A model generated the notes under the pieces. That model made no database searches. It was not told the origin of the DNA and saw only the letters and a program-made list of their open reading frames with translations. From an uncultured Carboxylicivirga sp. (GTDB taxonomy: Bacteria; Bacteroidota; Bacteroidia; Bacteroidales; Marinilabiliaceae): DNA of 64,000 nucleotides. The position numbers and the translations under genes are program-made. Location of the stretch: the NCBI GenBank assembly GCA_947503525.1, contig CANNEA010000001.1:310001-374000 (forward strand). The letters run 5' to 3'. Below are positions 4,321 through 56,041 of the stretch, one piece after another; positions within the stretch are counted from its first letter, which is position 1; the number at the start of each line of letters is the position of its first letter.

Positions 4321-4380
4321 CAAAAGTAGGCAGGAGTAGACTTTTTTATGGGTAAAAAGACCAAGGGATAAAAGGGGTAA
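4321..4380 (-). promoter_or_regulatory. Putative regulon operator and -7 box for GH29
   Basis: On the minus strand TTACCCC (4380-4374) is followed by a second ACCC (4353-4350) and by TACTTTTG at 4328-4321. The last is a perfect match to the Bacteroidota -7 box TAnnTTTG and begins 46 bases after the C-run. The layout matches the other operators of the window. The rest of the 3962-4539 gap holds the gene remnant, its hairpin, and a further 7-C run on the minus strand at 4454-4448 that has no -7 box at the expected distance. Confidence 0.55.
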
Positions 4381-4539
4381 TATGCAAGAAGGAGAACAGT
4401 TGTTCAGGGTTTTAACAGAGATGGGGATGTGATTTTGGAATTGATTAGGGGGGGTATTTTAATTGATGGAGTATTGGCTTGTTTCTTTACTTGTTAATGC
4501 CTTCTTTAGAAATTAAATCAGAACAAACTAAATCTTATC

Positions 4540-5610
4540 ATGCAAGCAAATCCATTTTTCGGAACACTTATACATGCCGTTGGAGGTGTGTCGGCAGCTA
4601 CCTGTTATGTACCATTTCAAAAAGTTAAAGCCTGGTCGTGGAACTCGTACTGGATTGTACAAGCTACCTTTGCCTGGTTAATTTTTCCGTTGCTGATCGG
4701 ATTTTTCACTTTACCCAATATGTTGGCTGTATTTACCGATGCACCCAATGAGGTATTGTTTTATGCTACCTTTCTTGGGGTGATCTATGGTTTTGGAGGC
4801 ATGTGTTTTGGTTATGCCATAAAGCATATAGGCTATTCGCTCACCTATACCATATCCATTGGGATATCTGCTGTATTGGGTACTATTGTGCCTTTAATTA
4901 TGCATGGTGAGTTGGTTCAGAAATTTAATGAGCCGGGTGGTCCCATCATCTTTTTTGGCATGTTATTGTCTGTAATTGGTATAGCCATTTGTGGTGTGTC
5001 GGGTTATAGAAAAGAAAAAGACCTTAAGGCCCTGGAGACGGAGGGTGTTGATAAGACGAGCTTTAATATGAAGAAGGGCTTGATCCTGACATTGGTAGCC
5101 GGTGTGTTGTCAGCTGTTTTTGGTATTTCCCTGGAAGTTGGAGCCCCTGTAGCTCAAATAGCCGGTGAATATGGTGCCGGTCATTTTGAGGGTAATGCCA
5201 ACCTGATTCTTTCAACAGGAGGTGCTTTTATAACCAACTTTATCTGGTTTTTGATTTTAGGTATTCGTCAGGGCACCATAAAAGAGCTGACGGATGTGAA
5301 GAATGTAGGTCGTAAAAGCTTGCTCATTAATTTTGTCATGTCCATCTTTAGTGGAGCACTGTGGTATGGTCAGTTCTTCTTCTACGGAATAGCGCATGTA
5401 CGAATGGGTGCTTATAAGTTTGCCTCATGGGTGATTCATATGTCTATGCTTATCTTCTTTAGCTATCTGGTGGGTATTGTAATGAAGGAATGGACACAAG
5501 TAAGTAAACGCACTTATAGAACCCTTCTTGTGGCCTTGGGTGTGCTTATTATTTCCTTTGTGGTAATGACTTATGGCAGTATGTTGGGGTCAGAAGAGAT
5601 TGGGCACTGA
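4540..5610 (+). CDS. RhaT-family sugar/proton symporter
   Basis: A 356-residue inner-membrane protein with about ten hydrophobic segments. It matches the L-rhamnose-proton symporter family over its length: N-terminal GTLIHAVGGVSAATCYVPFQKVKAWSW, then a W-rich stretch, and FFYGIAHVRMGAYKFASWVIHMSM in the C-terminal half. RhaT of enteric bacteria imports L-rhamnose and L-lyxose. Here it lies divergent from GH29 and just ahead of GH86, so it may import a 6-deoxy or L-sugar released by the locus, such as L-fucose or an L-galactose derivative. No rhamnose catabolic genes are nearby. The family call is secure; the substrate is inference. Confidence 0.88.
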   Translation: MQANPFFGTLIHAVGGVSAATCYVPFQKVKAWSWNSYWIVQATFAWLIFPLLIGFFTLPNMLAVFTDAPNEVLFYATFLGVIYGFGGMCFGYAIKHIGYSLTYTISIGISAVLGTIVPLIMHGELVQKFNEPGGPIIFFGMLLSVIGIAICGVSGYRKEKDLKALETEGVDKTSFNMKKGLILTLVAGVLSAVFGISLEVGAPVAQIAGEYGAGHFEGNANLILSTGGAFITNFIWFLILGIRQGTIKELTDVKNVGRKSLLINFVMSIFSGALWYGQFFFYGIAHVRMGAYKFASWVIHMSMLIFFSYLVGIVMKEWTQVSKRTYRTLLVALGVLIISFVVMTYGSMLGSEEIGH

Positions 5611-5680
5611 TGTAGGCTTTAGGGATTAGATGCTAATAGCTATTCTGTTGATGTAAAAGCTAAGTTCAATTCCGTTAATT

Positions 5681-5738
5681 ACCCCCTTATTTAGCTGCAT
5701 TATTACCCTAAGAATTTGCTTGTGTTTTTGTCTCTTTG
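5681..5738 (+). promoter_or_regulatory. Putative regulon operator and -7 box for GH86 no. 1
   Basis: ACCCCC at 5681-5686 is followed by a second half-site TTACCC ending at 5708 (22 bases on). TCTCTTTG at 5731-5738 matches TAnnTTTG with one mismatch and starts 45 bases after the C-run. Confidence 0.55.
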
Positions 5739-5815
5739 TAATCTGATTAGTTAATGGCACACTTTATGAATAAGTAAGCTATTGATTTGGATTGGAAACA
5801 AACAAACTTATTGAT

Positions 5816-7891
5816 ATGGTAAAGAATATACTTGTTTTAGCAATGTTGCTTGGAGCTGTGTGGTCTGGATTTGCGCAAAGCAAAGTAACTGTTGCACCTA
5901 AAATACAGAAGTATTTGGGTGATGTGTCGGAAATGGACCGTACAAAGTTTTTTAATCTGCATAGTGGAAGTGGAGATGCAGATTTGCAAAAGTTTTTTCA
6001 GGATTATAATGTTGGTTATGGTCGCGGATTTTGGGGCGCTTTTTCCTTTGCTAAAGGAAAAACAGGAGCGGCTGGTGTATATCCTGATTTCAGACCGGAA
6101 GTTGATCCGGGAGTAATTCGTACAGTGAAAAAAGGCTATGTGGCAACAGAGCATCCCAGTTCAACCTTTATTAATGGCATTGATGCAGTAAAAGCCGGAG
6201 AGTGGGCTGCTGAATATTATAAAAATTGGGTAAGCAATGGTGATGTGCCTGAGTATTTTGAGCCGATGAATGAGCCCTTTGTTCATGCTGATGATTTTAC
6301 CAGTGGTGATCAAACAGTGATAAAGGAACAAATGTCAGAGGTGTTTAACCAGGTTGGTAAGGCCATTCATGCCACACCCGAATTAGTCAATATGAAAATC
6401 ATCGGATATTCGTCAGCTTGGCCTGAGATGGAGCGCAATGATTTTGCTCACTGGTATGATAATCAACAGTTGTTTATGGATATTGCCGGTGCCAATATGG
6501 ATGGTTTTGCTACTCATCTGTATGATGGAATTAATGTAACCGGGCAAGACACCAAACGCTCAGGTTCCAATTCCGAGGCCGTACTGGATATGATTGAAAC
6601 CTATAGCATGTATAAGTTTGGCGAAGTGAAACCACATGCCATTACTGAGTATGGAGGTATTGCGGCAGGCTATCCTGATGGTTGGAATGACACGGAAAGT
6701 TCACAATCTGTGAAATCGAATAATCAGTTGATCTTTAATTTGATGAACCGTGAGAATGACTTGCTCTATTCCATTCCGTTTATTACCGATAAGTCCACAT
6801 GGCACATGAATGCTGATAATAACTATGAACCCTATGGTGCGGTTATTCTTCGTCCTGCTGATGATCAAATGGGGAAACCTCATACGCAAGTGACCGAGTG
6901 GGTGTATACTCCAAAGATTTATTTTTATGAGCTTTGGAAAGCTGTTGAAGGCGAACGTGTTTATGTCAGTTCAACAAATCCGGATATTCAGGTGAATGCC
7001 TTTGCTATGGGTAAGAAACTGTATGTCGCCATGGTTAATCTGGATGATCAATCGCAAAGTGTGGATTTGGATTTTGATGGTGGATATGAAGGTTTGCTAG
7101 ATGTTAAAATCAAGACCTTAAAGATCTATCAGGATAAGGTGCCTGATTTTAATGAAAATACAGTGTCATCTGCACCTGCAAACATGACTTTAATAGCAGA
7201 TGAGGCCGTAGTGTTAGAATATACCTACTCTTCTGAAATTGCATTTGATAATGCATCAAGATCAAATAAATACTATGCCGCTGAATATTTAAAAGCAATA
7301 ACAGGTGGCCCAATTACCTTTAATTTTAATGGAGTAGATGCCGGAATGAATGGCGGACAGGCCTATTTGCGTATGTCCATTGGAAGAAAGCATAATCGTT
7401 CAAAGCGTCCGATTGTTAAGGTAAATGGTACCCAGGTGAGTGTGCCTACCAACTGGTCAGGATATGATCAGGCTTCGCGTCAGGATTTCTTTGGTATGAT
7501 TGAAATACCTTTGGATGTGGAATTATTGGAGGAAAACAATGTGGTGACGATTCAGTTTTCAGATACGGGTGGTCATATTAGTTCTCTGGTATTGCAAGTG
7601 GATTTATTTGATAAGCAAACCGATGTTAGTATTGGCAAGGGTGCTGAATATGGGGTGGAAATCTATCCTACCCATGTGAGAGATGGGCGCTTAAATATTA
7701 GGTTGAAAGAAGCTAATCAGTTCGATCGTTTGGAGCTATATAATTTGGCTGGACGAAAAGTACGTAGTCAAATAATTGAGGCCAACAGAAGTGAGCTTGT
7801 GCTCACTGATATGCAAGAGGCTAAAGGGATTTATATTATTCGCTTAAGTGGTAAAAATGCTTTGTTTACACAGAAGATAGTTATTCAATAG
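5816..7891 (+). CDS. GH86 beta-agarase/beta-porphyranase with T9SS sorting domain
   Basis: A 691-residue enzyme. The frame opens with a TTG at 5792, but the ATG at 5816 gives a proper signal peptide (MVKNILVLAMLLGAVWSGFAQ) and was chosen. GH86 enzymes cut inside agar or porphyran chains with retention. The TIM barrel shows FEPMNEPF with Glu153 as likely acid/base and HAITEYGG with Glu278 as likely nucleophile; YGRGFWGAF near residue 65 is also typical. After the barrel come beta-sandwich domains (about 430-610) and a C-terminal sorting domain (IYPTHVRDGRLNIRL…), so the enzyme should be exported by T9SS and held on the surface or released. A regulon operator lies upstream and a terminator follows. 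Agarase versus porphyranase cannot be decided from sequence by eye. Confidence 0.93.
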   Translation: MVKNILVLAMLLGAVWSGFAQSKVTVAPKIQKYLGDVSEMDRTKFFNLHSGSGDADLQKFFQDYNVGYGRGFWGAFSFAKGKTGAAGVYPDFRPEVDPGVIRTVKKGYVATEHPSSTFINGIDAVKAGEWAAEYYKNWVSNGDVPEYFEPMNEPFVHADDFTSGDQTVIKEQMSEVFNQVGKAIHATPELVNMKIIGYSSAWPEMERNDFAHWYDNQQLFMDIAGANMDGFATHLYDGINVTGQDTKRSGSNSEAVLDMIETYSMYKFGEVKPHAITEYGGIAAGYPDGWNDTESSQSVKSNNQLIFNLMNRENDLLYSIPFITDKSTWHMNADNNYEPYGAVILRPADDQMGKPHTQVTEWVYTPKIYFYELWKAVEGERVYVSSTNPDIQVNAFAMGKKLYVAMVNLDDQSQSVDLDFDGGYEGLLDVKIKTLKIYQDKVPDFNENTVSSAPANMTLIADEAVVLEYTYSSEIAFDNASRSNKYYAAEYLKAITGGPITFNFNGVDAGMNGGQAYLRMSIGRKHNRSKRPIVKVNGTQVSVPTNWSGYDQASRQDFFGMIEIPLDVELLEENNVVTIQFSDTGGHISSLVLQVDLFDKQTDVSIGKGAEYGVEIYPTHVRDGRLNIRLKEANQFDRLELYNLAGRKVRSQIIEANRSELVLTDMQEAKGIYIIRLSGKNALFTQKIVIQ

Positions 7892-7908
7892 ATTATAGAT
7901 TTAGAGGC

Positions 7909-7948
7909 AAATCCGTTATCCAATACTTTGGGTAGCGGATTTTTTTTG
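7909..7948 (+). terminator. Intrinsic terminator after GH86 no. 1
   Basis: A 13-bp stem with two G-U pairs (AAATCCGTTATCC / GGGTAGCGGATTT) is followed by a T8 run. Confidence 0.88.
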
Positions 7949-8003
7949 TAAAATCCTTTCGACTTCCTCGGATTTCGAACTAAAGAGTGTTGTTTTTTAT
8001 TTT

Positions 8004-8066
8004 CCCCCCTATAAGCTTATTAAATGTCCATCTTACACAAGATTAGATAAAGTAAATTGCCTTTTG
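8004..8066 (+). promoter_or_regulatory. Putative regulon operator for GH2
   Basis: TCCCCCCT at 8003-8010 with a TCC half-site at 8027-8029 resembles the other operators. The -7 box is unclear: TAAATTGC (8053) or GCCTTTTG (8059-8066), each with two mismatches. Confidence 0.4.
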
Positions 8067-8093
8067 TAATCTTAACACGCAAAAAAACGCATT

Positions 8094-11033
8094 ATGCAAA
8101 GCAATACTCTTCTCCTCATTTTAACGATGCTGTCCATTGGTATAATTAAGGCAGATAATCAATCACATGATGTATATGGCTACCCTCAATCTAATAGAAG
8201 CAAATTCTGTATTAATACCGCATGGAAGTTTCACTTGGGTGATGCAGATGCCGATTATTATTTAAAGGCGACTAATGATAAAACCTGGGAAACGATTAGT
8301 ATTCCCCATACTTTGTATGAAACATCATTAACGCTTGATTTTTGCAAAGATGATAAAACGCAACCCACCTTTCAGCGTGAAGTAGGCTGGTACCGCAAGG
8401 ATATTGAAGTGAGTGCTTCTTCAAATAGAAAAGTGTTTCTGGAATTTGAAGGTGCTCATCAGGTCACCGACTGCTGGGTGAATGGTGAGCATGTAGGCCA
8501 ATTTGCGGTGGGTGGCTATTCACCTTTTCATTTTGACATTACGGATTTTGTGACACGAGGGGTCTTAAATCAGGTGACCTTAAAGGTAGATAATCGTCAG
8601 GACGAGAACATACCTCCAGACGCAGGGCCATTTGATTATGTGAAGTTCAGTGGTTTATACCGTGATGTGTATCTGGTAGAGACCGATCCCATGCACATTA
8701 CTTTTAACTGGGAAGCTCTAAAGGCAGGTGTAAACATTACAACTCCATCGGTTGATCCTGTTAATATGAATGCCACCATCAATATCAAAACTGTTGTTAG
8801 AAATGAATATGCATCTGTAAAAGAGGCTGAAGTAATTACGCGCATTATTGACCATCGAGGTGTGGTTGTAATAAAAATGGAGGAGAGCGCTGAGCTCGCA
8901 GCTGGACAGGATTATGAATTTAATCAGATTGGTGCACTGGAAGATGATGTGCAGTTATGGGATGTGGATCATCCCTATTTGTACCGGGTTAATACGGAAG
9001 TACTAGTTGATGGTAAAAGCGTCGACTGCCTTGAAAACAAAATTGGGCTACGAACTTTTCGTTTAGATAATGAATTGGGTTTTATGCTAAACGAGAAGCC
9101 CATCAAGCTCATTGGCTTTAACCGCCATCAACACCATGCCTATATTGGTGATGCTTTACCTAATAGCCTGCACTATAAAGATATGCTACAATTTAAGGAG
9201 ATGGGTTTTAATGTGATGCGGACGGCCCATTATCCGCATGATGATGCCATTATGGATGCCTGCGATGAACTGGGAATATTGGTTTATGAAGAAGCTCCCA
9301 CCTGGATCACCATGTCGAAAAATCCAAAGTGGTGGGATAATCTGGAATTATCGGCTCGTATTATGGTGCGTAATCATCGTAATCATCCATCCATTGTTAT
9401 TTGGGGTGCCGGAGTTAATCACAGAGGTTATGTACCTAGCATCAACAATGCCATTAAGCAGGAGGATCCGGTCCGATTAACGGCTTCGCAAGGATCTAGA
9501 TGGACTGGCTGGCAGGCTTCAGGATTAACGGATATTAATGCCAATATGCTTTATGGTCCATTTATCTGGGATAGATCAGAAACCATGCTGGCTATGGAAG
9601 GTCGTGGAGGTGCTGAGCATGTGGGGATGTATAAAAGCGATCCTAAAATGACAGGTATCATTACCTGGACGGCTCATGCTTATCATACTTTTCATCCTAC
9701 CCATGATAAGTATAACAGTACTTACGATAGAACTCGTAGTGGCTATATGACGCTCTTCCGCCAGCCTAAGCGCGAAATTTTATGGTATCCGTCTGAATTG
9801 AAGGAAGAGCCTTACTTACACATTGAAAATCCCTGGAAAGCTAGCACTAAAACCCTTAAAGTATTTTCTAATGCTGATGAGGTGGAGCTTTTTGTTAATG
9901 GCCAATCCTTTATGAAACAGAAGCCAGCACAGGATAGCACTTATATGGGGCTGGATCATCCGCCTTTTATTTTTAAGATAGATAATTATCAGAATGGTGA
10001 GCTTAAGGCAATTGGGTTTAAGGATAGAAAAGAATATGTGTCAGCCTCAACTCATACGCCGGGTAAAGCCCAACAAATAAAGTTGATTGTGGATGATAAA
10101 GGAAGAGACTTTGTGGCTGACGGTTCTGATATAATGGTAGCCTATGCCCGAATATTGGATAAGAATGGCACCTGGGTTCGTGATTCTGTGGGTGAGGTCA
10201 GTTTCACTGTTAGCGGACCAGCCACTATAGTTGGTGATGGCAAGGACATCAATGCCAATCCTATGTTTATCGAAAATGGTGAAGCACCTGTATTAATCCG
10301 AGCAGGATATGAACCGGGACAGATTAAACTTACGGCCAAAAGTAAGGGGATGAAATCAGCCTCAGTACTTATCAATACCATTTCACGAGAAGACGATATG
10401 GTAAAGGCTAAGGCCAGGCCAATTTATGATTTTAAGAAGGTGCGCATTGATATGGGATCACCCGATCAATTGGTGCAGTTTGGCTGGACCGAATGGAGTT
10501 CGAGGCAGGAAAAGGAAGCTGCCTTTGAACTGGCTGCTTTTGATGCGAGTGTTAAAGTAAAAAGCAATTCGGATGAAGGTATTTTACGTTGGCTGGGTGA
10601 GATGAATGTGATTGGTAAATATGGCTTTGCCTATGGTGAAGGCGTGATTGGCATGGATAAGGAAGGTCTTAGTCTACATTTTGAAGACCTTAAAGAAGGA
10701 ACTTACCGTTTAATGACATACCATCATGCACCACGTACCAACTCTGATCATATGGATCCGAACAAGGATAAAATAAAGACCTTAAGTATCCATAAATTGC
10801 CCTATGCAAAACGTTTAATTATTCAGCTTGAAGGTCAGGATGAGGCTATGGAATCACCGGTTACCGAAGGAAAGCAAATGCAGTTTGAAGCCGTGTCAAC
10901 AGCCGAAATCATTTTTGAATCTGATGGAGTTAATCCGGTTGTTATTAACTTTAAAGATGCAGATGGCGCAAAAGGAGTATGGTTAAATGCCTTTGAGTTT
11001 TCGGAGTGGCGTAGTGACTTGATTATTGATTAG
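8094..11033 (+). CDS. GH2-family exo-glycosidase with substituted acid/base position
   Basis: A 979-residue secreted protein with a short signal peptide. It has the GH2 order: sugar-binding jelly roll (about 35-195, with VGWYRKDIEV and WVNGEHVG), immunoglobulin-like domain (200-320), TIM barrel (325-600), DUF4982-like and Ig-like domains (600-770), and a C-terminal malectin-like carbohydrate-binding domain (775-979). GH2 enzymes of galactan loci are usually beta-galactosidases. The usual W-S-x-G-N-E motif reads W437-G-A-G-V-N442 here, so the acid/base Glu appears replaced by Asn, followed by His443. The nucleophile region keeps Glu502 in AMEGRGG. It may use another proton donor, a different linkage, or be inactive. 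No T9SS tail, so it is probably periplasmic. It heads the run of genes to 15309. Confidence 0.88.
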   Translation: MQSNTLLLILTMLSIGIIKADNQSHDVYGYPQSNRSKFCINTAWKFHLGDADADYYLKATNDKTWETISIPHTLYETSLTLDFCKDDKTQPTFQREVGWYRKDIEVSASSNRKVFLEFEGAHQVTDCWVNGEHVGQFAVGGYSPFHFDITDFVTRGVLNQVTLKVDNRQDENIPPDAGPFDYVKFSGLYRDVYLVETDPMHITFNWEALKAGVNITTPSVDPVNMNATINIKTVVRNEYASVKEAEVITRIIDHRGVVVIKMEESAELAAGQDYEFNQIGALEDDVQLWDVDHPYLYRVNTEVLVDGKSVDCLENKIGLRTFRLDNELGFMLNEKPIKLIGFNRHQHHAYIGDALPNSLHYKDMLQFKEMGFNVMRTAHYPHDDAIMDACDELGILVYEEAPTWITMSKNPKWWDNLELSARIMVRNHRNHPSIVIWGAGVNHRGYVPSINNAIKQEDPVRLTASQGSRWTGWQASGLTDINANMLYGPFIWDRSETMLAMEGRGGAEHVGMYKSDPKMTGIITWTAHAYHTFHPTHDKYNSTYDRTRSGYMTLFRQPKREILWYPSELKEEPYLHIENPWKASTKTLKVFSNADEVELFVNGQSFMKQKPAQDSTYMGLDHPPFIFKIDNYQNGELKAIGFKDRKEYVSASTHTPGKAQQIKLIVDDKGRDFVADGSDIMVAYARILDKNGTWVRDSVGEVSFTVSGPATIVGDGKDINANPMFIENGEAPVLIRAGYEPGQIKLTAKSKGMKSASVLINTISREDDMVKAKARPIYDFKKVRIDMGSPDQLVQFGWTEWSSRQEKEAAFELAAFDASVKVKSNSDEGILRWLGEMNVIGKYGFAYGEGVIGMDKEGLSLHFEDLKEGTYRLMTYHHAPRTNSDHMDPNKDKIKTLSIHKLPYAKRLIIQLEGQDEAMESPVTEGKQMQFEAVSTAEIIFESDGVNPVVINFKDADGAKGVWLNAFEFSEWRSDLIID

Positions 11034-15367: not shown

Positions 15368-15396
15368 CTAAGCATCTTTATTGTAAGATTCAATAT

Positions 15397-15454
15397 CCCC
15401 CCTCTATTCGCACTTAGCTTTCGCTTTTAAAAGGACTTTTTCGATCTATTTTTA
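15397..15454 (+). promoter_or_regulatory. Putative regulon operator and -7 box for the DUF5060 protein
   Basis: ATCCCCCCT with the C-run at 15397-15402. TATTTTTA at 15447-15454 matches TAnnTTTG except the last base and begins exactly 45 bases after the run. Confidence 0.55.
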
Positions 15455-32965: not shown

Positions 32966-33022
32966 CAATAATAATTTATTATACTCTGGATTTCATGTAA
33001 TAATACAATCGTATTTAGGGGG
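32966..33022 (-). promoter_or_regulatory. Putative regulon operator and -7 box for the lipoprotein gene
   Basis: On the minus strand TACCCCCT has its C-run at 33022-33018, with a TTAC half-site about 21 bases on. TATTATTG (32973-32966), one mismatch to TAnnTTTG, starts exactly 45 bases after the run. Confidence 0.55.
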
Positions 33023-33024
33023 TA

Positions 33025-39721: not shown

Positions 39722-39779
39722 ACCCCCTTTATTAATGGGAATTGATGGTCAGGGGCACTATCAATTTGACGTATTTTTA
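39722..39779 (+). promoter_or_regulatory. Putative regulon operator and -7 box for the PA14 GH3
   Basis: TTACCCCCT has its C-run at 39723-39727. TATTTTTA at 39772-39779 starts 45 bases after the run, the same sequence and spacing as at the DUF5060 gene. Confidence 0.55.
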
Positions 39780-45335: not shown

Positions 45336-45394
45336 TCCCCCTCTTATAGCAACTAATTTATGGCTGTGTTATTGAGGGGTGAGTTGTATTTTTG
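45336..45394 (+). promoter_or_regulatory. Putative regulon operator and -7 box for the plug-only protein
   Basis: ATCCCCCT has its C-run at 45337-45341. TATTTTTG at 45387-45394 is a perfect TAnnTTTG starting 46 bases after it. A strong hairpin at 45439 lies between this promoter and the gene. Confidence 0.55.
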
Positions 45395-45438: not shown

Positions 45439-45482
45439 ATACCGGAGGGTTTATATGATTAAGGTTGCTCTCCGGTATTTTT
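45439..45482 (+). terminator. Terminator-like hairpin in the leader of the plug-only gene
   Basis: A perfect 9-bp stem ATACCGGAG / CTCCGGTAT with a 22-base loop is followed by TTTTG. It could end the URO-D transcript. It also lies downstream of the putative promoter at 45387 and 35 bases before the next ATG, so it may act as an attenuator. Confidence 0.8.
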
Positions 45483-45516
45483 GTATAAAAAATCTAAACC
45501 CCAAAATACAGACATT

Positions 45517-46194
45517 ATGAACTTTAAGATTCTTTCCATTCTTCTAATCGGATTTATATTTTCAACACAACTACATTCTCAAACGACTACAGTAAAAGGT
45601 CGTGTGGTTGCATTTAAAGGTTTTGCATTAAATGATGTTTTAATAAAAGCGTCCAAGTCAAAACAGGAAGTAAGAAGTGATTCTACAGGTAATTTCACCA
45701 TCGAATGTAAAAAGAAAGATAACCTGAAATTTAGAGCTGATGGCTTTATTACCCAGTCATTACGGGTTAAAGATGTAACTAATATTGAAGTTAATTTACT
45801 TTTAGCAACGTATTCAGGAGCATTTGATAAAGTTGTAGAGGGAGGGCATATGACTGCAGTTACACTTCAGCATTGTGTTGATAATTTCATGAGTGATAAT
45901 AATAACTATCACCAGATGAAAGATATTTATCAAATTATACAGTTTGAATATTCAGGTGCTAAGGTGGTTGACAACGATGGTTTAACGCTCATTTACCTTA
46001 ATTCCAGAGGGCCAAATTCATTAGAAGCCGGCAGTGAAGCTTTAATGGTTGTAGATGGTATTGTTACCAATAATATAGCAGGTATTGATCCTTCACAAGT
46101 TGCTAGAGTTAATGTGCTCGTAGGAACAGAAACAAGTGAATATGGAACTCGAGGCGGAGCCGGTGTAATTGAAATATTTTTGAAAACCAAATAG
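45517..46194 (+). CDS. Plug-only TonB-receptor-like protein
   Basis: A 225-residue exported protein. The frame opens at a TTG (45481), but the ATG at 45517 gives the signal peptide (MNFKILSILLIGFIFSTQLHSQ). It has a carboxypeptidase-regulatory-like beta-sandwich (about 23-100: VKGRVVAFKGFALNDVLIKA) and then a TonB plug domain (about 110-225) with DGIVTNNIAGIDPSQVARVN and EYGTRGGAGVIEIFLK, the same pattern as the SusC plug (DGIPYNSN…, YGTRASNGVILI). No barrel follows; the stop comes right after the plug. The frame is intact and short by design rather than by a visible mutation. It might bind ligand or modulate a SusC channel. Confidence 0.78.
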   Translation: MNFKILSILLIGFIFSTQLHSQTTTVKGRVVAFKGFALNDVLIKASKSKQEVRSDSTGNFTIECKKKDNLKFRADGFITQSLRVKDVTNIEVNLLLATYSGAFDKVVEGGHMTAVTLQHCVDNFMSDNNNYHQMKDIYQIIQFEYSGAKVVDNDGLTLIYLNSRGPNSLEAGSEALMVVDGIVTNNIAGIDPSQVARVNVLVGTETSEYGTRGGAGVIEIFLKTK

Positions 46195-46424
46195 AATGAT
46201 CGTCTGAACCTTTGGTGGGAAGGTATCTAAGTTCATAAATAGTTTGCTATGGAGTGCTTTGTTGCTTAAAATTTGCTTCAAATATAAATGTGGCACTAGG
46301 GAATCCTATGTAAATACTTCTATTGCTAGCTGTACAAAACGGAGAGACACATAGAATATTTGAGAATTTATCTTAGATAGCTTTTTGTTTTATGTTTCAA
46401 ATACCACCTTCCCATGCTTAAAAA

Positions 46425-46502
46425 ACCCCCTCTGTTATCATTTGCTACCTTTTTCGTCGTCTTTTTGCGACACCACATTTTCTAATATTACAATTAGTTT
46501 TG
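46425..46502 (+). promoter_or_regulatory. Putative regulon operator and -7 box for GH117
   Basis: ACCCCCT (C-run 46426-46430) is followed by TGTTATCATTT, identical to the SusC site. TAGTTTTG at 46495-46502 is a perfect TAnnTTTG starting 65 bases after the run. The remainder of the 354-base gap shows nothing else. Confidence 0.62.
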
Positions 46503-46548: not shown

Positions 46549-47757
46549 ATGAAGAAAATATTCTACGCTTTACCAATCTTAATATTAATAGTTGGATTAA
46601 GCTCTTGCCAAAACAATAGTGAAACAAAAGAATGTTGTAAGGAAGATTACAGCAGCGTTAGCGATGAAGAATTGGATCACCTCGGAATTACAAACCGGGA
46701 TTTTATGAGTGCTGCCTCAAAGCGAGCACTTAAATGGCCAAAAATTGGGAATGAGTGGTTTGTTGAATTTGCCGTTACTGATCTTAAGGGTGATTTAGCT
46801 TATGAAGAAGGCATTGTAAGGCGTGATCCTAGTGCTATGATTAAAGAAGATGGTAAATACTACGTTTGGTATTCAAGAAGTACGGGAAAAACGGATGGTT
46901 TTGCCGGCGATATCGAAAACGAAAAGGTATTTCCATGGGATCGTTGTGATATTTGGTATGCCACATCAGAAGATGGAATAACTTGGAATGAAGAAGGACC
47001 TGCAGTAAAGCGCGGAGAAAAAGGAGCCTATGATGATCGTTCAGTTTTTACAGTTGAAATTATGGTACATGAAGGTAAATACTATTTGTGTTATCAAACT
47101 GTAAAGTCGCCATATAACGTAAGAGTAAAAAACCAGGTAGGTTTGGCATGGGCTGATTCGCCAAACGGTCCATGGACCAAGTCTGAAGAGCCAATTTTAA
47201 GTCCTGCTGATAATGGCGTTTGGGAAGGAGAGGCAGACAATCGTTTCAAAGTGCTTAAGAAAGGTGACTTTGATAGCCATAAAGTGCATGATCCATGTAT
47301 TATTCCTTTTAAAGGTCAATTCTATTTGTATTATAAGGGAGAACAGATGGGTGAAGAGATTACCTTTGGCGGTCGTCAAATCCGACATGGTGTAGCTATA
47401 GCCGACAACCCTAGAGGACCATATGTAAAGTCAAAGTACAATCCCATCAGCAATAGTGGACACGAAATTTGTGTGTGGCCTTATAATGGAGGTATCGCTT
47501 CATTAATTACTACAGACGGACCGGAGAAAAACACGATGCAATGGTCGCCCGATGGAATCAATTTTGAAATTATGAGTGTGATACCCGGAGCACCACATGC
47601 CATTGGTTTGAACAGAACTGCTGATAACGAAAAAGAGCCAACCGAAATACTTCGTTGGGGATTAACGCATGAGTATATGAACTACAATTACCAATATATT
47701 CGTCGTTTTACATCGCAGCGTAAAACTTCGCATACGGCTATAGGAGAAGACTCGTAA
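46549..47757 (+). CDS. GH117 alpha-1,3-(3,6-anhydro)-L-galactosidase
   Basis: A 402-residue lipoprotein (lipobox GLSSC, Cys20) with a five-bladed propeller. GH117 enzymes release 3,6-anhydro-L-galactose from the non-reducing end of neoagaro-oligosaccharides. The expected catalytic positions are present: Asp93 in VRRDPSAM, Asp248 in HKVHDPCI, and His305-Glu306 in SNSGHEIC. The helical N-terminal stretch (DHLGITNRDFMSAASKRALKW, split at the N) used for dimerisation is also there. The lipid anchor puts it in the periplasm or at the outer membrane. Its operator shares an 11-base identity with that of SusC. This gene is the strongest single sign that the locus handles agar-type galactan. Confidence 0.95.
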   Translation: MKKIFYALPILILIVGLSSCQNNSETKECCKEDYSSVSDEELDHLGITNRDFMSAASKRALKWPKIGNEWFVEFAVTDLKGDLAYEEGIVRRDPSAMIKEDGKYYVWYSRSTGKTDGFAGDIENEKVFPWDRCDIWYATSEDGITWNEEGPAVKRGEKGAYDDRSVFTVEIMVHEGKYYLCYQTVKSPYNVRVKNQVGLAWADSPNGPWTKSEEPILSPADNGVWEGEADNRFKVLKKGDFDSHKVHDPCIIPFKGQFYLYYKGEQMGEEITFGGRQIRHGVAIADNPRGPYVKSKYNPISNSGHEICVWPYNGGIASLITTDGPEKNTMQWSPDGINFEIMSVIPGAPHAIGLNRTADNEKEPTEILRWGLTHEYMNYNYQYIRRFTSQRKTSHTAIGEDS

Positions 47758-47825: not shown

Positions 47826-47882
47826 ACCCCTGTTTTAACCCTATTTTATTACCTCTTTAACAAGTGTTACGTTTTACTTTTG
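47826..47882 (+). promoter_or_regulatory. Putative regulon operator and -7 box for the T9SS surface protein
   Basis: AACCCCT (C-run 47827-47830) is followed by a TTACC half-site about 21 bases on. TACTTTTG at 47875-47882, a perfect TAnnTTTG, starts 45 bases after the run. Confidence 0.6.
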
Positions 47883-47917: not shown

Positions 47918-49966
47918 ATGAAAAAGATTTACTTGGTATTAATTGCCGTGCTTACTGCATTTTCTTCTGTACAGGCACAGTATATGACCTTATATGAGAA
48001 TGATTTTGCTCAAGAAACAATTGGTTATCATCTTGGAACTGAGTTGACGCCTAATCCTTGGACTGGAATTAATACTACCAATACTTTTTGGCAAAAAGAA
48101 ACTGCTGACGGCTTGAAATTTGGAGATTGGAGAGGCGTGAATCTAGGTGCTAACCCTTTGGTAAATTGGGTTGAAGGCAAAAAGGTTAGATTCACAATGG
48201 GATTATACCTTGCTGCAGATCGAGCTGCAGGTAATAATTTTAGGTGTGGTTTAGTGGTTGCAGATGGTGCTGAAAATGTTGTGCCTAAAGTTGGCTTTGA
48301 GCTAGCATCCTATACAGCAGCAGGAGGTATGAATATCAGTATTAACGGGAGTACATATACAACTGCCCCTATTGCAAATGGCACTCTTGTAACAATGGAA
48401 TATGAAGTTACAAGAAGTGAAGTGGATGGGGAATTTAATACTGTTTTAGTTGTGAAAAATGGAGCAACATCAATACTCAATGAGACTGTTATGTGTACTG
48501 ATGCTGAACTGTATAATAATGCAGTAAACGGCAATAGTTCAATATTTACATGTTTCAATAAAGCGACAGTAGGTATGGCCTTTTGGTCATCTTTTAAGTT
48601 AGAGATGGAATCATCGGTTGTACTTTTAGCAGATGCAGGTGCAAGCCAATCGGTAAATTCAGGGGATGCTGTTAGCCTGCAAGCTAGTGCAAGCTACGAT
48701 GGAAATCCGGTAGCTGATGCGACATACATGTGGGAAGCACCTGAAGGAATAAGTTTATCGGGAGCTAACACTGCAACACCAAGCTTTACGGCCCCAACCA
48801 CAGGAAGGATAACTGAATTATTATTAAAAGTAACAGCAACAGCAGATGTAGGTGGTGGTGTTCAAACCGCTGAAGCTTATACTACGGTTACTGTAAATCC
48901 CGATCAAATATTCGGTACTACTGTAGCACCTTACGAGATTTCTACTGCTGATCATTTATTCAACTTGATTCTTTCAGGAAGCACTTATTTAACAAGTGAT
49001 TTTGTTCTAACTGCGGATATTGACTTAACTGGTGAAGACTACTATACACCAATAGGAGATTACCAAGGAACTTTTGACGGACAGAACCATACTATAACCG
49101 GTCTTAAAATGATGGAAGAAAGCGGTCATGTTGGCTTATTTACGCGTATAAAATGGGGAGCTCTTGTTAAAAACCTCGGTTTGGTAAACCCTAATATCCA
49201 AAACACTGGTGCTGGTAGTACAGGTGGTATAGTTGGCTATTTAGATGCAGATTTAGTAGAGAATTGTTTTGTAATTGGTGGAACAATAAATGGAACGAGT
49301 AGAGTTGGCGGTATAGCAGGTACATGTGCAAATTGGACTGGTGGCGAGAAAACCGTTGTAAAGAATTGTTTCACTTACGTAAATGTAATGGGAGCTGAAC
49401 CAGCTGGTCTCATTGGTGCATCGAATGGTGGAAATGGAAATATGGTAATTGAGGATTGTGCAGTGTATGGTATGGTAAAATATACTGATACTGGTGATAT
49501 GGGGCCCGCAAGTATTGACGGAACTCCTACCGACATCGTACTTACAGATATCTATTTTAAAGAGGGAGTTGTAAAGGCGAGTGCTATATCTGGAGAAACA
49601 GAGTTAATGACTTCAGAATTAGGAGATATAAGTTCCTATACAGGTTTAGATGTAACTATTTGGAGTATATCGGCTAAGTTCGGTTTTGCTGTACTTAGTG
49701 CCTTCGACTATAGTGCTATAACACCTGATTTCCCAACCGATATTCAAGTTTCTGATATTATTGATTCGGAAGTATACTCACATGGTAAAACCATTTATAT
49801 TAACTCTGAAGCTAAGGCTAGTCCTTATCAGGTCTATAATGTAAGCGGTAATATGGTTAAGCAAGGTTTAGCTGAAGGTGCAGGTTATAACAAAACTTTA
49901 GATTTACCTGCAGGTATTTACATTGTAAAAGTTGGTGCTACAACTAAAAAAGTTGTGTTGAAATAA
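47918..49966 (+). CDS. T9SS-exported surface protein with GLUG-like repeats
   Basis: A 682-residue protein: signal peptide (ending SVQAQ), an N-terminal concanavalin-like beta-sandwich (about 20-230), a PKD/REJ-like Ig domain (about 232-330), a beta-helical region with GLUG-like motifs (about 345-560: GTFDGQNHTITGLKM, GSTGGIVGYLDADLVENCF, SRVGGIAGTC), and a C-terminal sorting domain (IYINSEAKASPYQVYNVSG). No catalytic family is recognised. It has a regulon operator with perfect -7 box and directly follows GH117. A surface glycan-binding role is likely, and an unrecognised enzyme is possible in the N-terminal domain. Confidence 0.75.
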   Translation: MKKIYLVLIAVLTAFSSVQAQYMTLYENDFAQETIGYHLGTELTPNPWTGINTTNTFWQKETADGLKFGDWRGVNLGANPLVNWVEGKKVRFTMGLYLAADRAAGNNFRCGLVVADGAENVVPKVGFELASYTAAGGMNISINGSTYTTAPIANGTLVTMEYEVTRSEVDGEFNTVLVVKNGATSILNETVMCTDAELYNNAVNGNSSIFTCFNKATVGMAFWSSFKLEMESSVVLLADAGASQSVNSGDAVSLQASASYDGNPVADATYMWEAPEGISLSGANTATPSFTAPTTGRITELLLKVTATADVGGGVQTAEAYTTVTVNPDQIFGTTVAPYEISTADHLFNLILSGSTYLTSDFVLTADIDLTGEDYYTPIGDYQGTFDGQNHTITGLKMMEESGHVGLFTRIKWGALVKNLGLVNPNIQNTGAGSTGGIVGYLDADLVENCFVIGGTINGTSRVGGIAGTCANWTGGEKTVVKNCFTYVNVMGAEPAGLIGASNGGNGNMVIEDCAVYGMVKYTDTGDMGPASIDGTPTDIVLTDIYFKEGVVKASAISGETELMTSELGDISSYTGLDVTIWSISAKFGFAVLSAFDYSAITPDFPTDIQVSDIIDSEVYSHGKTIYINSEAKASPYQVYNVSGNMVKQGLAEGAGYNKTLDLPAGIYIVKVGATTKKVVLK

Positions 49967-51600: not shown

Positions 51601-51631
51601 AATACTAACCTGGATTTAGATTTAACCTACG

Positions 51632-51657
51632 GGCAGAACAACGGTTCTGCCTTTTTA
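51632..51657 (+). terminator. Intrinsic terminator after the membrane protein
   Basis: A perfect stem GGCAGAAC / GTTCTGCC with a 4-base loop is followed by TTTTT. It lies between convergent genes. Confidence 0.92.
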
Positions 51658-51694
51658 TTTTATCGCCATTTGATTGTTTCCTAAAACCTATCGT

Positions 51695-54600
51695 CTAATC
51701 CCTGGAAAATTGCTTGGCATACTCAGATGGGCTAACGCCAAACTTTTCTTTAAAACGACTTCGGAATGTTCGCAAGTCGTTATAGCCAACTTTCCAGGTC
51801 ACCTCCGAAACATTCAATACATTTTGTTTCAATAATTCTGCAGCATGTTTCAATCGAATGTTGCGCATAAACTGATTGGAAGTTTCGCCTGTTAAAGCTT
51901 TTATTTTGCGATTAAGGTAGATGCGGGATACACCATATATCTCTGAAAGTTGTTCAACCGTAAAATCGGAGTCGGACAGATGTTCTTCAATTATCTCCAA
52001 TATATTATCCATAAACTTCACATCCGCAGGTGAGTTTGAAATTATGGATGGATTTATCTCTATTTCTTTTTGGAATCTAAGTCTGACTTGTTCACGATTC
52101 TTAATAAGAGCTTCCATGTTTGCCAGTAATACATCGGTATTAAATGGCTTTGCTATATAGGCATCTGCTCCAATTTGATAACCTTCGATTTTAGCTTCAT
52201 CGGAGTTTTTAGCTGTCAGTAACAGAACCGGGATATGACTAATTTCCTCTTTGTTTTTAACCTCGTTACATAAATCAATGCCATTCATATTTGGCATCAT
52301 TACATCGGTGACGAGCAATTCAGGTGAATGTTTGATACATAATTCCAATCCTTGCATTCCATCCTCCGCCGCAAATACCTGATAGTGTTTTAATAGTTTG
52401 CTCGCTAAATAGTTTCGTAATTCATCGTTATCTTCGGCTATCACAACTTTAGGTTTATTGCTATCTGCTTTTTCCGAAGTTATAATTAATGATTCTTGTT
52501 TGATGTTTTCCGAACTATATTCTGAACCGGAATAATCACTTATCTCTTGATTAATATCCTCATTTTCGTTGGAACTTGGTTCGTTGGCAGGAATACGTAC
52601 GAAAAAACTAGTGCCTTTTGTCTCTACACTGCTGAACCATATTTTCCCTTTATGTAATTCAACAATTCCTTTAGAAAGCGCTAATCCTATTCCCGTTCCT
52701 CCTGAATTGACCTTATTTTTTGCACTGTTCTGATAGTAGCGTTCAAATACGTGTGAGGCTTCTTCCTGACCAATGCCATCTCCGGTATCTTTTACCGTAA
52801 TTAAAATCTGATTGTTTAATTCGAGCTTGTATGCGATACTAATATGCCCGCCTTTAGGCGTAAATTTAAAAGCGTTAGAAAGGAGGTTGTAAATGACCTT
52901 TTCAAACTTTTGAGCATCAAACCAAACAGGCGGAAATGCGGGGTTTAATTCCAAAATATAGTCGATCTCTTTATTGATGGCCAGAGGTGTAAAAGAATCG
53001 TATATGGTGCTTAGGAATTGACTTAGATCTTGCTTGGATAAATTGAGTTTGAGTTTATTTTGATCCAACTTTCGGAAATCCATTAACTGATTAATCAAGC
53101 GCATCATTACATTCACATTTTGCTTAATGAGCTTTTGATTATGATTTCGATCTTCAGCACTTAAACTAATTTTCGGATCCATTAATTCATTCAGCGGTGC
53201 GTTAATTAGCGTAAGTGGAGTTCTGAATTCGTGTGATATATTAGTGAAGAACTGAAGCTTCATTCGCGAAAGCTCTTCAACCTTATTCTTTTCAAGTTTC
53301 GACATCAAGAGCTCTTTTTTACGATTCGCAATTAGCTTTGAAGTTCTATAAAGAATAAAGGAAATGATCAGAATAAGCAGAATGTATAAGGCTATTGCCC
53401 ATTTACTGCGATAAGCCGGAGGGTAGACTTTTATTTTTAAGGTAGTAGGCTGATCAACCCAAATATTATCACAATTAGATGCCATAACCTTAAAAGTATA
53501 ATCACCTGCAGGTATATTGGTATATTTAGCCATACGATAATCAGGTGATGCTTTGTACCATTGCTTATCGAAACCTTCGAGTATATAACGGTATTTGTTT
53601 TTTTGTGGCGCATTAAAATGAAGGCCTACAAAACCAACAGAGAAACTATTTTGATTGTAATCCAGTTCAATATTCTTGGTGTATTCAATTGATTTATCGA
53701 GTATAATTTTACCACTGTGTTCCTCGCCAGGGTACACTTCTTTATTTAAAATCATAAAATCAGTAAGAAATACTTTCGGCTTTGTTTTGTCGCTTTTAAT
53801 TTCGGAAGGATTAAATACATTAATCCCATTAATGCCACCAAAAATAATGTCTCCATTCTGACGTTTTAAACCACATATCTCACTGAATTCATTATCCTGA
53901 AGTCCATCATCCTGATTGTAGTTGACTACCGTTCCGTCTATGGGATTAAAATGTGTTAGGCCTTCATTACTGGCCAGCCAAAGAAAACCGGAATGATCTT
54001 CAACGATTGATTTAATGGAGTTGTTTGGAAGGTTATCTTTGGTGCTAACGTTGCTGAAACTGTATGTTTTATCAAAGGTAGAATAGTGACACTTAATCAT
54101 GCCACCGCCCATGGTGCCCATGTATAAGTCTCCATTCTTCGACTCCATAATCTGAAGAATATAATCATAGGGAAGTTGATTCTTCTGCTTGCCGATAACA
54201 AACTGTTCGAATCTTGGAGACTCCCTTTGTAATTCTTTCGCTTCTATTAAGTTTAAGCCTTTGTCGGTGCCTATCCACAGGTTACCCTTACTGTCCTTAT
54301 AAATACTTCTAATTATATAGGACAATAAACCATTTTGATCGTTGTTCTTCGGTCTAAATCGCTTATAATCCATAATGTTACCGTCCTGATTAAGCGATAG
54401 GCGATATAACCCTTCTCCGTATGTTCCGGCCCATAATGTTGAATCATTTTCCTTTTCTAAGGCAAAAACAAAACCCAGGTTATTAACAAACTCTGGTAAT
54501 TCAATAGCTTGCAAACTAACAGGATCATAGGCGGCAAGAAAGACAGGAAAACTGGTTCCGAACCATATAAGACTTTTGTGCTTTTTTGATAAGGGTGTAT

Positions 54601-55834
54601 ATGTTTCTTCAATCGCATATACGCGATCTTCATTGGTAAATGAGTTTATTTCAATGTGTTGGAAGTTTGAAGTGTAGCTCTTGTTTTTGCGTAATAGGGC
54701 TACACCTTTTTCTTCCGATCCTAACCACAGGTTTTCATGCGAATCTTCAAATATACAACGGGTTAGGTTATTGGGTAAGGATCCTGCTTGCTGACTATGT
54801 TGAAAATGCTGAAAAGGTTTTGGGCGTTGGCTGATGGTATTAACGCCTCCACCTCTGGTACCTATCCATATTTGTTTAAGATCATCGCTAGCCATCCAGG
54901 TCACTATATTACTGCTTAGGCTGAATTCGGTAAAGTCATTTTCAAATTCTCGTGCTACTTGCCATTGTCCATTGATTTGCTTTAGGCAGCTCACCCCTTG
55001 TCTGCTACCGGTCCATATACTTCCATTCTGGTATAGAACTGAAGTTACTGGTTCTTCCGAAATTCTTTCGATTTGATAAACACCATTTTCATTTGGCAAT
55101 ATTGAATTGATGGTAAAGCCAGCCGATAATATACCATCCTTATAATCACAAATGTTTCCGGAAAAGCACTCGTAAGTTTCAAACTGAATATCATTCTTGG
55201 GGGCATTATGGTTAATTACACGTTTGATATTTGTATTAGTACCTATCCATAAATTCTCGCTTTTGTCAAGGTGAATCGTTTTTACTACGTTACCATCCTC
55301 TTGTTCTTCTTCCGAAAGATTAAACACGTCAATACCCTTGATCTTATCATTAGTAGCATCTATTTTTATTCGATAGGCTCCAAACCAATTACTTGTCCAT
55401 ATATTATCAAAGTTATCGACTGTTAATGAGGTGACATCATCGGCTATCTTATTGTCAGTTGATTCTGTGCTGTAGTTGGTAAATATCTGTTTAACCGGAT
55501 CTAATTTACAGATGCCTTTGCCGTAGGTGCCAATCCAAATATTGCCTTTACTGTCTTCGTCTATGGCTATGATCATGTTACTGCTGATGCTGTTTTTTGA
55601 TTCCTCAACACGATAACTCTTATATGTATATCCATCAAAACGATGGAGACCATCTAAGGTGCCAATCCACATGAAACCTTTACTGTCCTTAAATATGCAA
55701 TTCACATCTTTTGCAGGAAGGTCGTGAAGGGCTTTTATTTTATAATCATTAAAAGAAAGCGTCTGACCTAATGTGCCAGAAGAAAAGAATAGAATGATAA
55801 AAAATGCTAATGGATGTAAATTGAATTTATGCAT
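51695..55834 (-). CDS. Hybrid two-component system regulator (HTCS)
   Basis: A 1379-residue one-protein sensor and activator. In order: signal peptide; two seven-bladed propellers of Reg_prop repeats (about 25-720: DSKGFMWIGTLDGLHRFDG, DSKGNIWIGTYGKGI and so on); Y_Y_Y domain (about 735-805); membrane helix (about 811-831); HisKA with His868 in NISHEFRTPLTL; HATPase (NLLSNAFKFTPKGG, GTGIGLALSKGIV); receiver with Asp1177 in LLVTDVMMPNMNG; C-terminal AraC HTH (about 1270-1379). In Bacteroidota such proteins bind an oligosaccharide in the periplasm and activate the cognate PUL. It is divergent from SusC and is the most likely binder of the C-run operators; that assignment is inference. Confidence 0.95.
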   Translation of the reverse strand: MHKFNLHPLAFFIILFFSSGTLGQTLSFNDYKIKALHDLPAKDVNCIFKDSKGFMWIGTLDGLHRFDGYTYKSYRVEESKNSISSNMIIAIDEDSKGNIWIGTYGKGICKLDPVKQIFTNYSTESTDNKIADDVTSLTVDNFDNIWTSNWFGAYRIKIDATNDKIKGIDVFNLSEEEQEDGNVVKTIHLDKSENLWIGTNTNIKRVINHNAPKNDIQFETYECFSGNICDYKDGILSAGFTINSILPNENGVYQIERISEEPVTSVLYQNGSIWTGSRQGVSCLKQINGQWQVAREFENDFTEFSLSSNIVTWMASDDLKQIWIGTRGGGVNTISQRPKPFQHFQHSQQAGSLPNNLTRCIFEDSHENLWLGSEEKGVALLRKNKSYTSNFQHIEINSFTNEDRVYAIEETYTPLSKKHKSLIWFGTSFPVFLAAYDPVSLQAIELPEFVNNLGFVFALEKENDSTLWAGTYGEGLYRLSLNQDGNIMDYKRFRPKNNDQNGLLSYIIRSIYKDSKGNLWIGTDKGLNLIEAKELQRESPRFEQFVIGKQKNQLPYDYILQIMESKNGDLYMGTMGGGMIKCHYSTFDKTYSFSNVSTKDNLPNNSIKSIVEDHSGFLWLASNEGLTHFNPIDGTVVNYNQDDGLQDNEFSEICGLKRQNGDIIFGGINGINVFNPSEIKSDKTKPKVFLTDFMILNKEVYPGEEHSGKIILDKSIEYTKNIELDYNQNSFSVGFVGLHFNAPQKNKYRYILEGFDKQWYKASPDYRMAKYTNIPAGDYTFKVMASNCDNIWVDQPTTLKIKVYPPAYRSKWAIALYILLILIISFILYRTSKLIANRKKELLMSKLEKNKVEELSRMKLQFFTNISHEFRTPLTLINAPLNELMDPKISLSAEDRNHNQKLIKQNVNVMMRLINQLMDFRKLDQNKLKLNLSKQDLSQFLSTIYDSFTPLAINKEIDYILELNPAFPPVWFDAQKFEKVIYNLLSNAFKFTPKGGHISIAYKLELNNQILITVKDTGDGIGQEEASHVFERYYQNSAKNKVNSGGTGIGLALSKGIVELHKGKIWFSSVETKGTSFFVRIPANEPSSNENEDINQEISDYSGSEYSSENIKQESLIITSEKADSNKPKVVIAEDNDELRNYLASKLLKHYQVFAAEDGMQGLELCIKHSPELLVTDVMMPNMNGIDLCNEVKNKEEISHIPVLLLTAKNSDEAKIEGYQIGADAYIAKPFNTDVLLANMEALIKNREQVRLRFQKEIEINPSIISNSPADVKFMDNILEIIEEHLSDSDFTVEQLSEIYGVSRIYLNRKIKALTGETSNQFMRNIRLKHAAELLKQNVLNVSEVTWKVGYNDLRTFRSRFKEKFGVSPSEYAKQFSRD

Positions 55835-55964
55835 AAAATCCTTTTATGAATAACTGACCAGTTTCAAATTTAGTGATAAATTGGTTAAAACCATGCCTTG
55901 GATTAAGTATTGTCAAATAGATTATTAGCAGAGGGTTTCAAACACATACGGTAGGTTTTCAAAT

Positions 55965-56041
55965 ACCCCTTTTGTTATCATTTCCGTGCCCAAATGCAAT
56001 TGAATACGTATGCTAAGGAATGTTAAGTGAAGTTAATTTTG
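55965..56041 (+). promoter_or_regulatory. Putative regulon operator and -7 box for susC
   Basis: ACCCCT (C-run 55966-55969) is followed by TGTTATCATTT, as at GH117, and a CCC half-site ending 55991. TAATTTTG at 56034-56041, a perfect TAnnTTTG, starts 65 bases after the run. No TTG is present near -33. Confidence 0.62.

Follow-up and report, generated by a model that had tools for sequence, protein, structure and literature searches.

Fixed operator-to-promoter spacing in a probable red-algal galactan degradation region of Carboxylicivirga, and a probable division of promoters between two paralogous hybrid two-component regulators

The window analysed here (64,000 nucleotides of the genome of an uncultured Carboxylicivirga species) contains ten genes preceded by a similar arrangement, a run of C residues followed in most cases by a TAnnTTTG-like -7 box, and the question is which regulator recognizes these sites. 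The original prediction grouped the genes in one regulon and named as its binder the hybrid two-component system regulator (HTCS) encoded at 51695..55834 (-), divergently from SusC. This protein, here HTCS1, has propeller repeats and Y_Y_Y, HisKA, HATPase, receiver and AraC-type HTH domains; a paralog, HTCS2, is encoded outside the window, 54 kb before it (C1:252361-256464), and both consist of a sensor, a kinase, a receiver and an AraC-type HTH. Control of the set by an HTCS-type protein is supported, and the account that we favour with reasonable confidence, on the basis of sequence comparison, is that HTCS2 acts on most of the C-run sites and HTCS1 on SusC and GH117. The two paralogs would run a ~190-kb region (C1:169-366 kb) for the degradation of a red-algal galactan of the agar/porphyran type, the right-hand end of which lies in the window; we infer this substrate, as well as the ligands of the regulators.

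All ten C-runs, and the box distances given for them, are present in the sequence. In seven sites the box begins at base 45-46 after the last C; these are the sites of GH29 (4321..4378 (-), HTCS2-type layout, C-run 4377-4374, perfect box TACTTTTG at 4328-4321), GH86 (5681..5738 (+), C-run 5682-5686, box TCTCTTTG with one mismatch, gene 5792-7891), the DUF5060 protein (15396..15454 (+), C-run 15397-15402, box TATTTTTA with one mismatch, gene 15496-19773), a DUF6786 protein initially listed as an unknown lipoprotein (32966..33023 (-), C-run 33022-33018, box TATTATTG with one mismatch, gene 31741-32925), PA14-GH3 (39722..39779 (+), C-run 39723-39727, box TATTTTTA with one mismatch, gene 39811-42432), the plug-only protein (45336..45394 (+), C-run 45337-45341, perfect box TATTTTTG, gene 45481-46194) and a T9SS protein (47826..47882 (+), C-run 47827-47830, perfect box TACTTTTG, gene 47918-49966). 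At two promoters that we classify as HTCS1-type the box starts at base 65 after the last C (a gap of 64 nt), namely that of GH117 (46393..46502 (+), C-run 46426-46430, box TAGTTTTG at 46495-46502, gene 46549-47757), with GTTTCAAATACC-like copies at 46393 and 46434, and that of SusC (55955..56041 (+), C-run 55966-55969, box TAATTTTG at 56034-56041, gene 56090-59218), with a perfect GTTTTCAAATACC at 55955. Five boxes (GH29, plug, T9SS, GH117 and SusC) are indeed perfect, and the GH2 site (8003..8010 (+), gene 8094-11033), considered unclear before, has a C-run that scores 14.3 with the distal matrix and no box allowing up to one mismatch. The membership of GH29 (gene 2435-3961) is doubtful because its site, although present, is separated from the ORF by 416 nt that include a terminator-like hairpin (4172-4153 (-)). 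A peptide-like stretch between the site at 4372 and GH29 gave no significant match (best E 1.9) when compared with the ORFs found in 1.25 Mb of this genome and in the loci of relatives.

It is the combination of C-run and box that exceeds chance in the window; the C-run motif by itself is not enriched there (WCCCCNT, 37 observed versus 50.5 expected). When the sites are aligned on the box, a C is found at -47 in 17/17 and a T at -40 in 16/17, and the spacing is fixed even though the spacers look unrelated in sequence. The predicted 21-base half-site repeat holds for the HTCS1 sites; in the C-run sites the repeat is weak and self-similarity peaks at 23-25 bp rather than 21. The 21 bases correspond to the gap between the end of the C-run and the next ACC. 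Among 18 C-run sites of relatives no proximal CC reaches 55% or more. A TTG at -33 is not evident, as had been noted, but its absence is uninformative because ordinary boxes lack it as well (TTG in 2-7 of 168 ordinary perfect boxes per offset, offsets 17-24).

Scanning C1:1-854000 and C2:1-400000 (1.25 Mb) for the layout in non-coding DNA upstream of an ORF start yielded 23 matches, 19 of which fall within C1:168964-365966; the other four are a repeat present three times at C1:437 kb and a hairpin on C2. Equal frequency of the motif before unrelated genes would have spoken against a regulon, and this was not observed. The coordinated set is supported, but it is not confined to ten genes of the window, as it extends ~141 kb further upstream and includes genes for GH16, GH86, GH29, GH2, GH3, GH97, sulfatase, SusC and others. 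The clustering of distances is equally local: for the 32 upstream C-runs of C1:160-375 kb we counted 19 boxes at 43-46 nt and at most four in every other 4-nt bin over 15-110 nt, versus none at 43-46 nt for the 49 upstream C-runs in the rest of the fetched sequence. A site shared by CAZyme, SusC and related operons and rare elsewhere is what an HTCS-controlled regulon should show. Against the account favoured here, further sites outside the region lie at C1:497 kb, at C2:301 kb and on C10 and C3. A matrix built from 18 sites of relatives gave 18 matches of 20 or more in the same 1.25 Mb, 17 of them in C1:168-358 kb, a test that is not independent because its training sites were found with the matrix of this genome (it left out G074:C3:125 kb, the G074 plug homolog, G073:C19/C32/C33, G072:C37, G061, G081, the G034:C28 locus matches and five G009 matches).

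The layout is conserved at the orthologous loci of HTCS2 in four relatives (G034, G072, G073 and G074) and in Labilibaculum filiforme. With the matrix of this genome we found 14 matches in 306 kb of HTCS2 loci, a total that includes a 6-kb G024 contig without matches, whereas the 1.49 Mb surrounding 79 other HTCSs contained none; 11 of the 14, scoring 20 or more, come from 282 kb in five relatives (G034 4, G074 3, G073 3, G072 1, G024 0) and three from 24 kb in L. filiforme, where they precede SusC, GH29 and GH3. Against this, one layout match, scoring 29.1, was seen in the locus of a different HTCS (G034:C28). Among 71 genomes, only this one and G034, G072, G073 and G074 reach two or more whole-genome model matches, the latter being four of the five other HTCS2-bearing genomes; G024 has HTCS2, yet no matches. 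These four relatives have 14 model matches in all, of which only 5 (0/3 for G073) lie inside the fetched HTCS2 loci. Unlinked sites in G074 and G034 precede orthologs (62-69%) of the GH16, LacZ-type GH2 and sulfatase genes of the region, and in G073 the layout is also found before a 54%-identical GH86 adjoining HTCS2, and the GH2 ortholog there adjoins HTCS2 as well; a 38%-identical plug homolog of 225 aa in G074 has a site scoring 22.6. An early rule-based scan of stretches from nine relatives, in which the 6-kb contig was the only HTCS2 stretch covered, gave eight upstream matches, three of them in G009; the matrix was used later. The SusC-like protein beside HTCS2 has 1040 aa, of which one comparison used the first 419 residues (locus end).

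At the orthologous loci of HTCS1, SusC and GH117 are preceded by tandem copies of a different operator, GTTWTCAWATRCC, which is clear in G009, G034, G073 and G074 and not found at 0-1 mismatch in the G024 and G072 loci. It forms direct repeats of about 21 bp: 21 bp in the SusC promoters of G009, G034 and G074 and 19-22 bp in the GH117 promoter of G034, with ~40 in G073. The HTH domains of HTCS1 and HTCS2 are 42% identical, compared with 76% and 81% within the ortholog groups. When every upstream region in the HTCS1 and HTCS2 loci of the relatives was searched for motifs de novo (EM, widths 12 and 16), only generic promoter-like and AT-rich motifs emerged. Since the layout accompanies HTCS2 orthologs and GTTWTCAWATRCC accompanies HTCS1 orthologs, SusC and GH117 fit HTCS1 and most of the other eight genes fit HTCS2. 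The C-runs of SusC and GH117 fit the distal matrix moderately (13.0 and 12.1), and therefore dual control of these two is possible.

Co-occurrence alone fails to separate the candidate regulators: the presence of at least two matches is associated with HTCS2 (p 5.5e-6), HTCS1 (1.6e-5) and the AraC-type regulator of the window (7.3e-5), in genomes that are related. As HTCS1 and HTCS2 mostly co-occur, the proposed split depends on proximity, on the type of motif and on a single genome of the same genus, G009, which has HTCS1 and no HTCS2 ortholog and itself carries two layout-like sites. A single regulon in which HTCS1 binds all ten promoters and tolerates two spacings that differ by two helical turns seems rather improbable. 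HTCS1 is the HTCS closest to the ten sites, its presence is associated with model matches too, the C-runs of SusC and GH117 moderately resemble the distal matrix, and a looser matrix finds two matches of 20 or more in the HTCS1 locus of G009, ahead of GH2 and of the C1:375879 ortholog. Nevertheless, the whole genome of G009 gives no model matches, the HTCS1 loci of G024, G034, G072, G073 and G074 (228 kb) contain no layout match of 20 or more, with GTTWTCAWATRCC clear instead in those of G034, G073 and G074, and five species retain the layout beside HTCS2. The view that HTCS1 binds one regulon is for these reasons not well supported.

Somewhat less probable still is binding of the C-run sites by a stand-alone AraC-type regulator (window 43274-44140 or C1:274343-275239) or by another, unlisted regulator. 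Both genes lie within the region and orthologs of the former (53-55%) occur in G034, G073 and G074, but G072, with HTCS2 and two model matches, lacks a match to either at E 1e-50 or better, and neither has a homolog in the fetched HTCS2 loci (blastp, 1e-20). That the layout is an artefact of chance or selection, or stems from duplicated copies of one promoter without a common binder, is hardly credible: the sites were chosen by eye and C-runs alone are not enriched, but an invariant distance across unrelated spacers and the transfer of the layout to orthologous genes of other species largely refute it.

In the favoured two-regulator account, HTCS2 most likely binds A/T-rich DNA that leads into C4-C7 and a T-rich segment, in a site whose centre lies 47 bases ahead of where the box begins, and would activate about 20 promoters from such sites; a second subunit is probably placed on a weak T-tract/CC element ~24 bases closer, at the position of a -33 element. 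HTCS1 most likely binds the ~21-bp GTTWTCAWATRCC direct repeats and activates the divergent SusC operon and GH117. We infer this binding and activation, and likewise the HTCS acting at each single promoter. It is a tentative idea that HTCS2 relies on one strong half-site ~47 bases before the box with no sequence-conserved second half-site, drawing specificity from that half-site and a rigid distance (not described for HTCSs in the portions of the literature consulted), and that two paralogs, whose CC-core operators are related, split a single merged superlocus for red-algal galactan between them.

HTCS-type regulons are known; what is unusual here is the very constant distance between operator and promoter. 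In the sections of the Bacteroides thetaiotaomicron study on which we draw (Ravcheev et al. 2013, PMC3878776), AraC-type HTCSs lie beside SusC/SusD, predicted operators are direct repeats averaging 21 bp ahead of CAZyme/SusC operons, distant ones included, and paralogous HTCSs have similar motifs, features shared with the present system (the 21-bp repeat at the HTCS1 sites). The present case differs in that a single ~190-kb region appears to be shared by two paralogs; its C-run sites combine a strong distal half-site with a weak proximal one, at a period of 23-25 bp, and most of them stand at a constant 44-45 nt from the -7 box, a distance that those sections do not discuss. A literature search of limited scope retrieved no paper on HTCS operator-to-promoter distance or on a porphyran HTCS operator, which does not prove that none exists. 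The analysis yields a rule, combining operator and promoter, that is predictive for a large marine glycan regulon, the likely main regulator of which is an HTCS outside the window. It also provides a natural setting in which to test how HTCS paralogs that run neighbouring gene sets keep their targets apart, and the fixed spacing opens HTCS activation geometry to reporter-fusion testing. The TAnnTTTG -7 box is common to sigma-ABfr-type promoters of Bacteroidetes, as far as described in the relevant part of PMC7366714, whereas the C-run at a fixed upstream distance belongs to the sites described here. Scattered red-algal galactan genes together with an AraC-family regulator are also found in the carrageenan regulon of Zobellia galactanivorans, where, according to the part of PMC5698469 considered, which gives no operator motif, the regulator CgrA is a stand-alone protein.

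Our reading of the red-algal galactan region (C1:169-366 kb) is that two HTCS regulons are merged in it. The window (C1:310001-374000) belongs to a genome of 6.56 Mb in 39 contigs, and all ten C-runs of the original prediction, in which a single layout preceded ten genes, were located in its sequence, with the claimed C-run-to-box distances and the five perfect boxes both correct; the GH2 site has no box. The genes behind the window sites encode GH86, GH2, a DUF5060 protein, a DUF6786 protein, PA14-GH3, a plug-only protein, GH117 (the name originally given; the Pfam assignment is GH43), a T9SS protein and SusC. C-runs by themselves are not enriched within the window; what is informative is a C-run paired with a box at constant spacing.

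Besides the window, 1.19 Mb of the same genome was scanned with the rule [AT]C4-6, then TAnnTTTG (at most one mismatch) 43-46 or 63-66 nt past the run, in non-coding sequence less than 600 nt ahead of an ORF start. The 23 matches comprise 19 in C1:168964-365966, three repeat copies near C1:437 kb and one hairpin on contig C2. When the distance was left free, the box counts of the 32 upstream C-runs in C1:160-375 kb spiked (19) at 43-46 nt, with no other 4-nt bin exceeding 4, and the 49 upstream C-runs elsewhere in the fetched sequence gave none at 43-46 nt. A matrix was trained on 17 sites of this genome (threshold score 20; leave-one-out scores of at least 20 in 14/17), and at that threshold the full matrix picks out 16 training sites and 4 new ones (20 in all) within the 215-kb region, and 2 in the other 1,039 kb. 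A whole-genome model of the same 17 sites gave 18 matches under strict filters (E <=0.05), of which 16 are its own training sites, matching by construction, and only two lie elsewhere (contigs C10 and C3). The fixed pattern CCCC-N43-46-TANNTTTG has 28 distinct sites genome-wide, 9 of them in the region versus 0.85 expected. The rule, spacing, matrix and fixed-pattern scans therefore do not find the motif equally often before unrelated genes, the outcome named beforehand as speaking against a regulon. At C1:435736-437717 (L024) three tandem segment copies, ~406 bp apart, carry ACCCCTGAAAATCC and a box-like sequence.

Behind the ten rule-based sites outside the window are genes for GH16 (two), GH29 (two), GH2, GH3, GH97, a sulfatase, GH86 and a DUF4625 protein, and behind the four new matrix sites another GH86, GH43-CBM6, a CBM4 beta-helix protein and a SusC-like gene adjoining HTCS2. 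Weaker sites precede a LacZ-type GH2 (17.2), another gene at C1:279093 (17.8) and a Vps10-like T9SS protein (14.1). The gene set is of the agar/porphyran type (we infer the substrate). The off-cluster sites precede a GH2 gene on C10 (L242:3787-6378, minus strand; score 25.3) and, on C3, a 794-aa protein without Pfam family (L243:6437-8821, plus strand; 29.5), and are possibly distant members or chance. The GH2 gene at C1:220173-222779 has counterparts near HTCS1 in G009, G024, G034, G072 and G074 (47-51% identity); here ~140 kb separate it from HTCS1, and a CACCCC-type layout site precedes it.

In the box-aligned sites, C occupies -47 in 17/17 and T occupies -40 in 16/17; proximal C peaks at -24 to -22, yet in at most 10/17. 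When the halves of these sites are compared with each other, similarity is greatest at 23-25 bp rather than at the predicted 21. Relatives' sites, 18 in number, conserve the C-run, the preceding A-rich stretch and a T-tract (-30 to -26), but a proximal CC nowhere reaches 55% among them. For B. thetaiotaomicron, one source (PMC3878776) describes HTCS operators as direct repeats of 21 bp on average, similar motifs for paralogous HTCSs, and distant members of regulons. The present analysis contributes the regulon, its probable partition between two HTCSs, and the constant distance from operator to box; on this last point a literature search found no paper, though absence is not thereby proven.

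Four genes of the region encode an AraC-type HTH: HTCS1 (in the window, 51695-55834, minus strand), HTCS2 (C1:252361-256464) and two stand-alone AraC genes. HTCS1 has orthologs (49-54%) in the related genomes G009, G024, G034, G072 and G073, and a split one in G074; HTCS2 has orthologs (51-59%) in G024, G034, G072, G073 and G074 and in L. filiforme (62%), and none in G009 at the cut-off used. Matrix matches of at least 20 at the HTCS2 loci (282 kb) number 4 in G034, 3 each in G074 and G073, 1 in G072 and 0 in G024, and the L. filiforme locus (24 kb) has 3, ahead of SusC, GH29 and GH3. The HTCS1 loci (348 kb) have 2, both in G009, the surroundings of four other HTCSs (140 kb) have 1, and 79 other HTCS loci (1.49 Mb) have none.

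Among 71 family genomes, at least two model matches occur only in this genome (18), G034 (4), G072 (2), G073 (3) and G074 (5); seven others have 1 each, and G009 and G024 have 0. Five of the 14 matches in G034, G072, G073 and G074 are inside fetched HTCS2 loci. Three (two in G074, one in G034) are unlinked and precede orthologs of region genes, namely sulfatases (68% and 69%) and a GH16 (62%), the latter adjoined by a LacZ-type GH2 ortholog (63%) that also has a site. One in G074 precedes a distant sulfatase homolog (30%), one in G034 is located at another HTCS's locus, and the remaining four, including all three of G073, precede genes without ortholog in the region. In G073 a layout site (25.3) is found upstream of a 1090-aa protein with Reg_prop propeller repeats, Y_Y_Y and an MCP signalling domain (L238:3184-6456, minus strand).

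A different element, GTTWTCAWATRCC (tallied in tandem with at most two mismatches per copy), occurs in the promoters of SusC genes adjoining HTCS1 orthologs, with copies spaced 21 bp in G009, G034 and G074 and 40 in G073, and, in G034 and G074, a third copy after another 19. GH117 of G034 has three copies, spaced 19-22; here the SusC promoter contains a single perfect copy and that of GH117 a pair of 2-mismatch copies, 41 apart, and these same two promoters have the odd 64-nt spacing. At 0-1 mismatch GTTWTCAWATRCC lies ahead of a gene 8 times in HTCS1 loci, once in another HTCS locus, and not in HTCS2 loci nor at the HTCS1 loci of G024 and G072, counts that are descriptive rather than an independent test, the pattern being derived from the same HTCS1 loci. 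Identity between the HTH domains of HTCS1 and HTCS2 is 42%, versus 76% and 81% within the ortholog groups, and differing specificities are therefore expected.

The original prediction of HTCS1 as binder of a single regulon fits SusC and GH117, which have the GTTWTCAWATRCC copies and where HTCS1 would likely bind; the other sites we read as probably HTCS2-type. Since HTCS1 and HTCS2 mostly occur together, and genome counts, from related genomes and so not independent samples, favour both almost equally, this division is based on proximity, on the type of motif and on a single genome, G009, itself with two layout-like sites. HTCS2 is the likely predicted binder at GH86 and GH2 because their orthologs adjoin HTCS2 in G073, where the GH86 ortholog has the layout. 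The same is likely for the plug promoter because the plug-only SusC-like N-terminal protein (45481-46194, 237 aa) has a 225-aa homolog in G074 (L233:3072-3749, minus strand; 38%) with the layout, for which reason it may also be a true small protein and not a broken SusC. Motif type alone makes HTCS2 the likely candidate at DUF5060, GH3, the lipoprotein, T9SS and the 4372 site. The 4372 site, nominally ahead of GH29, may not serve that gene. The interval between the two (4153-4330) contains a peptide-like stretch together with a terminator-like hairpin and is possibly what is left of a gene, since lost, that this site once served.
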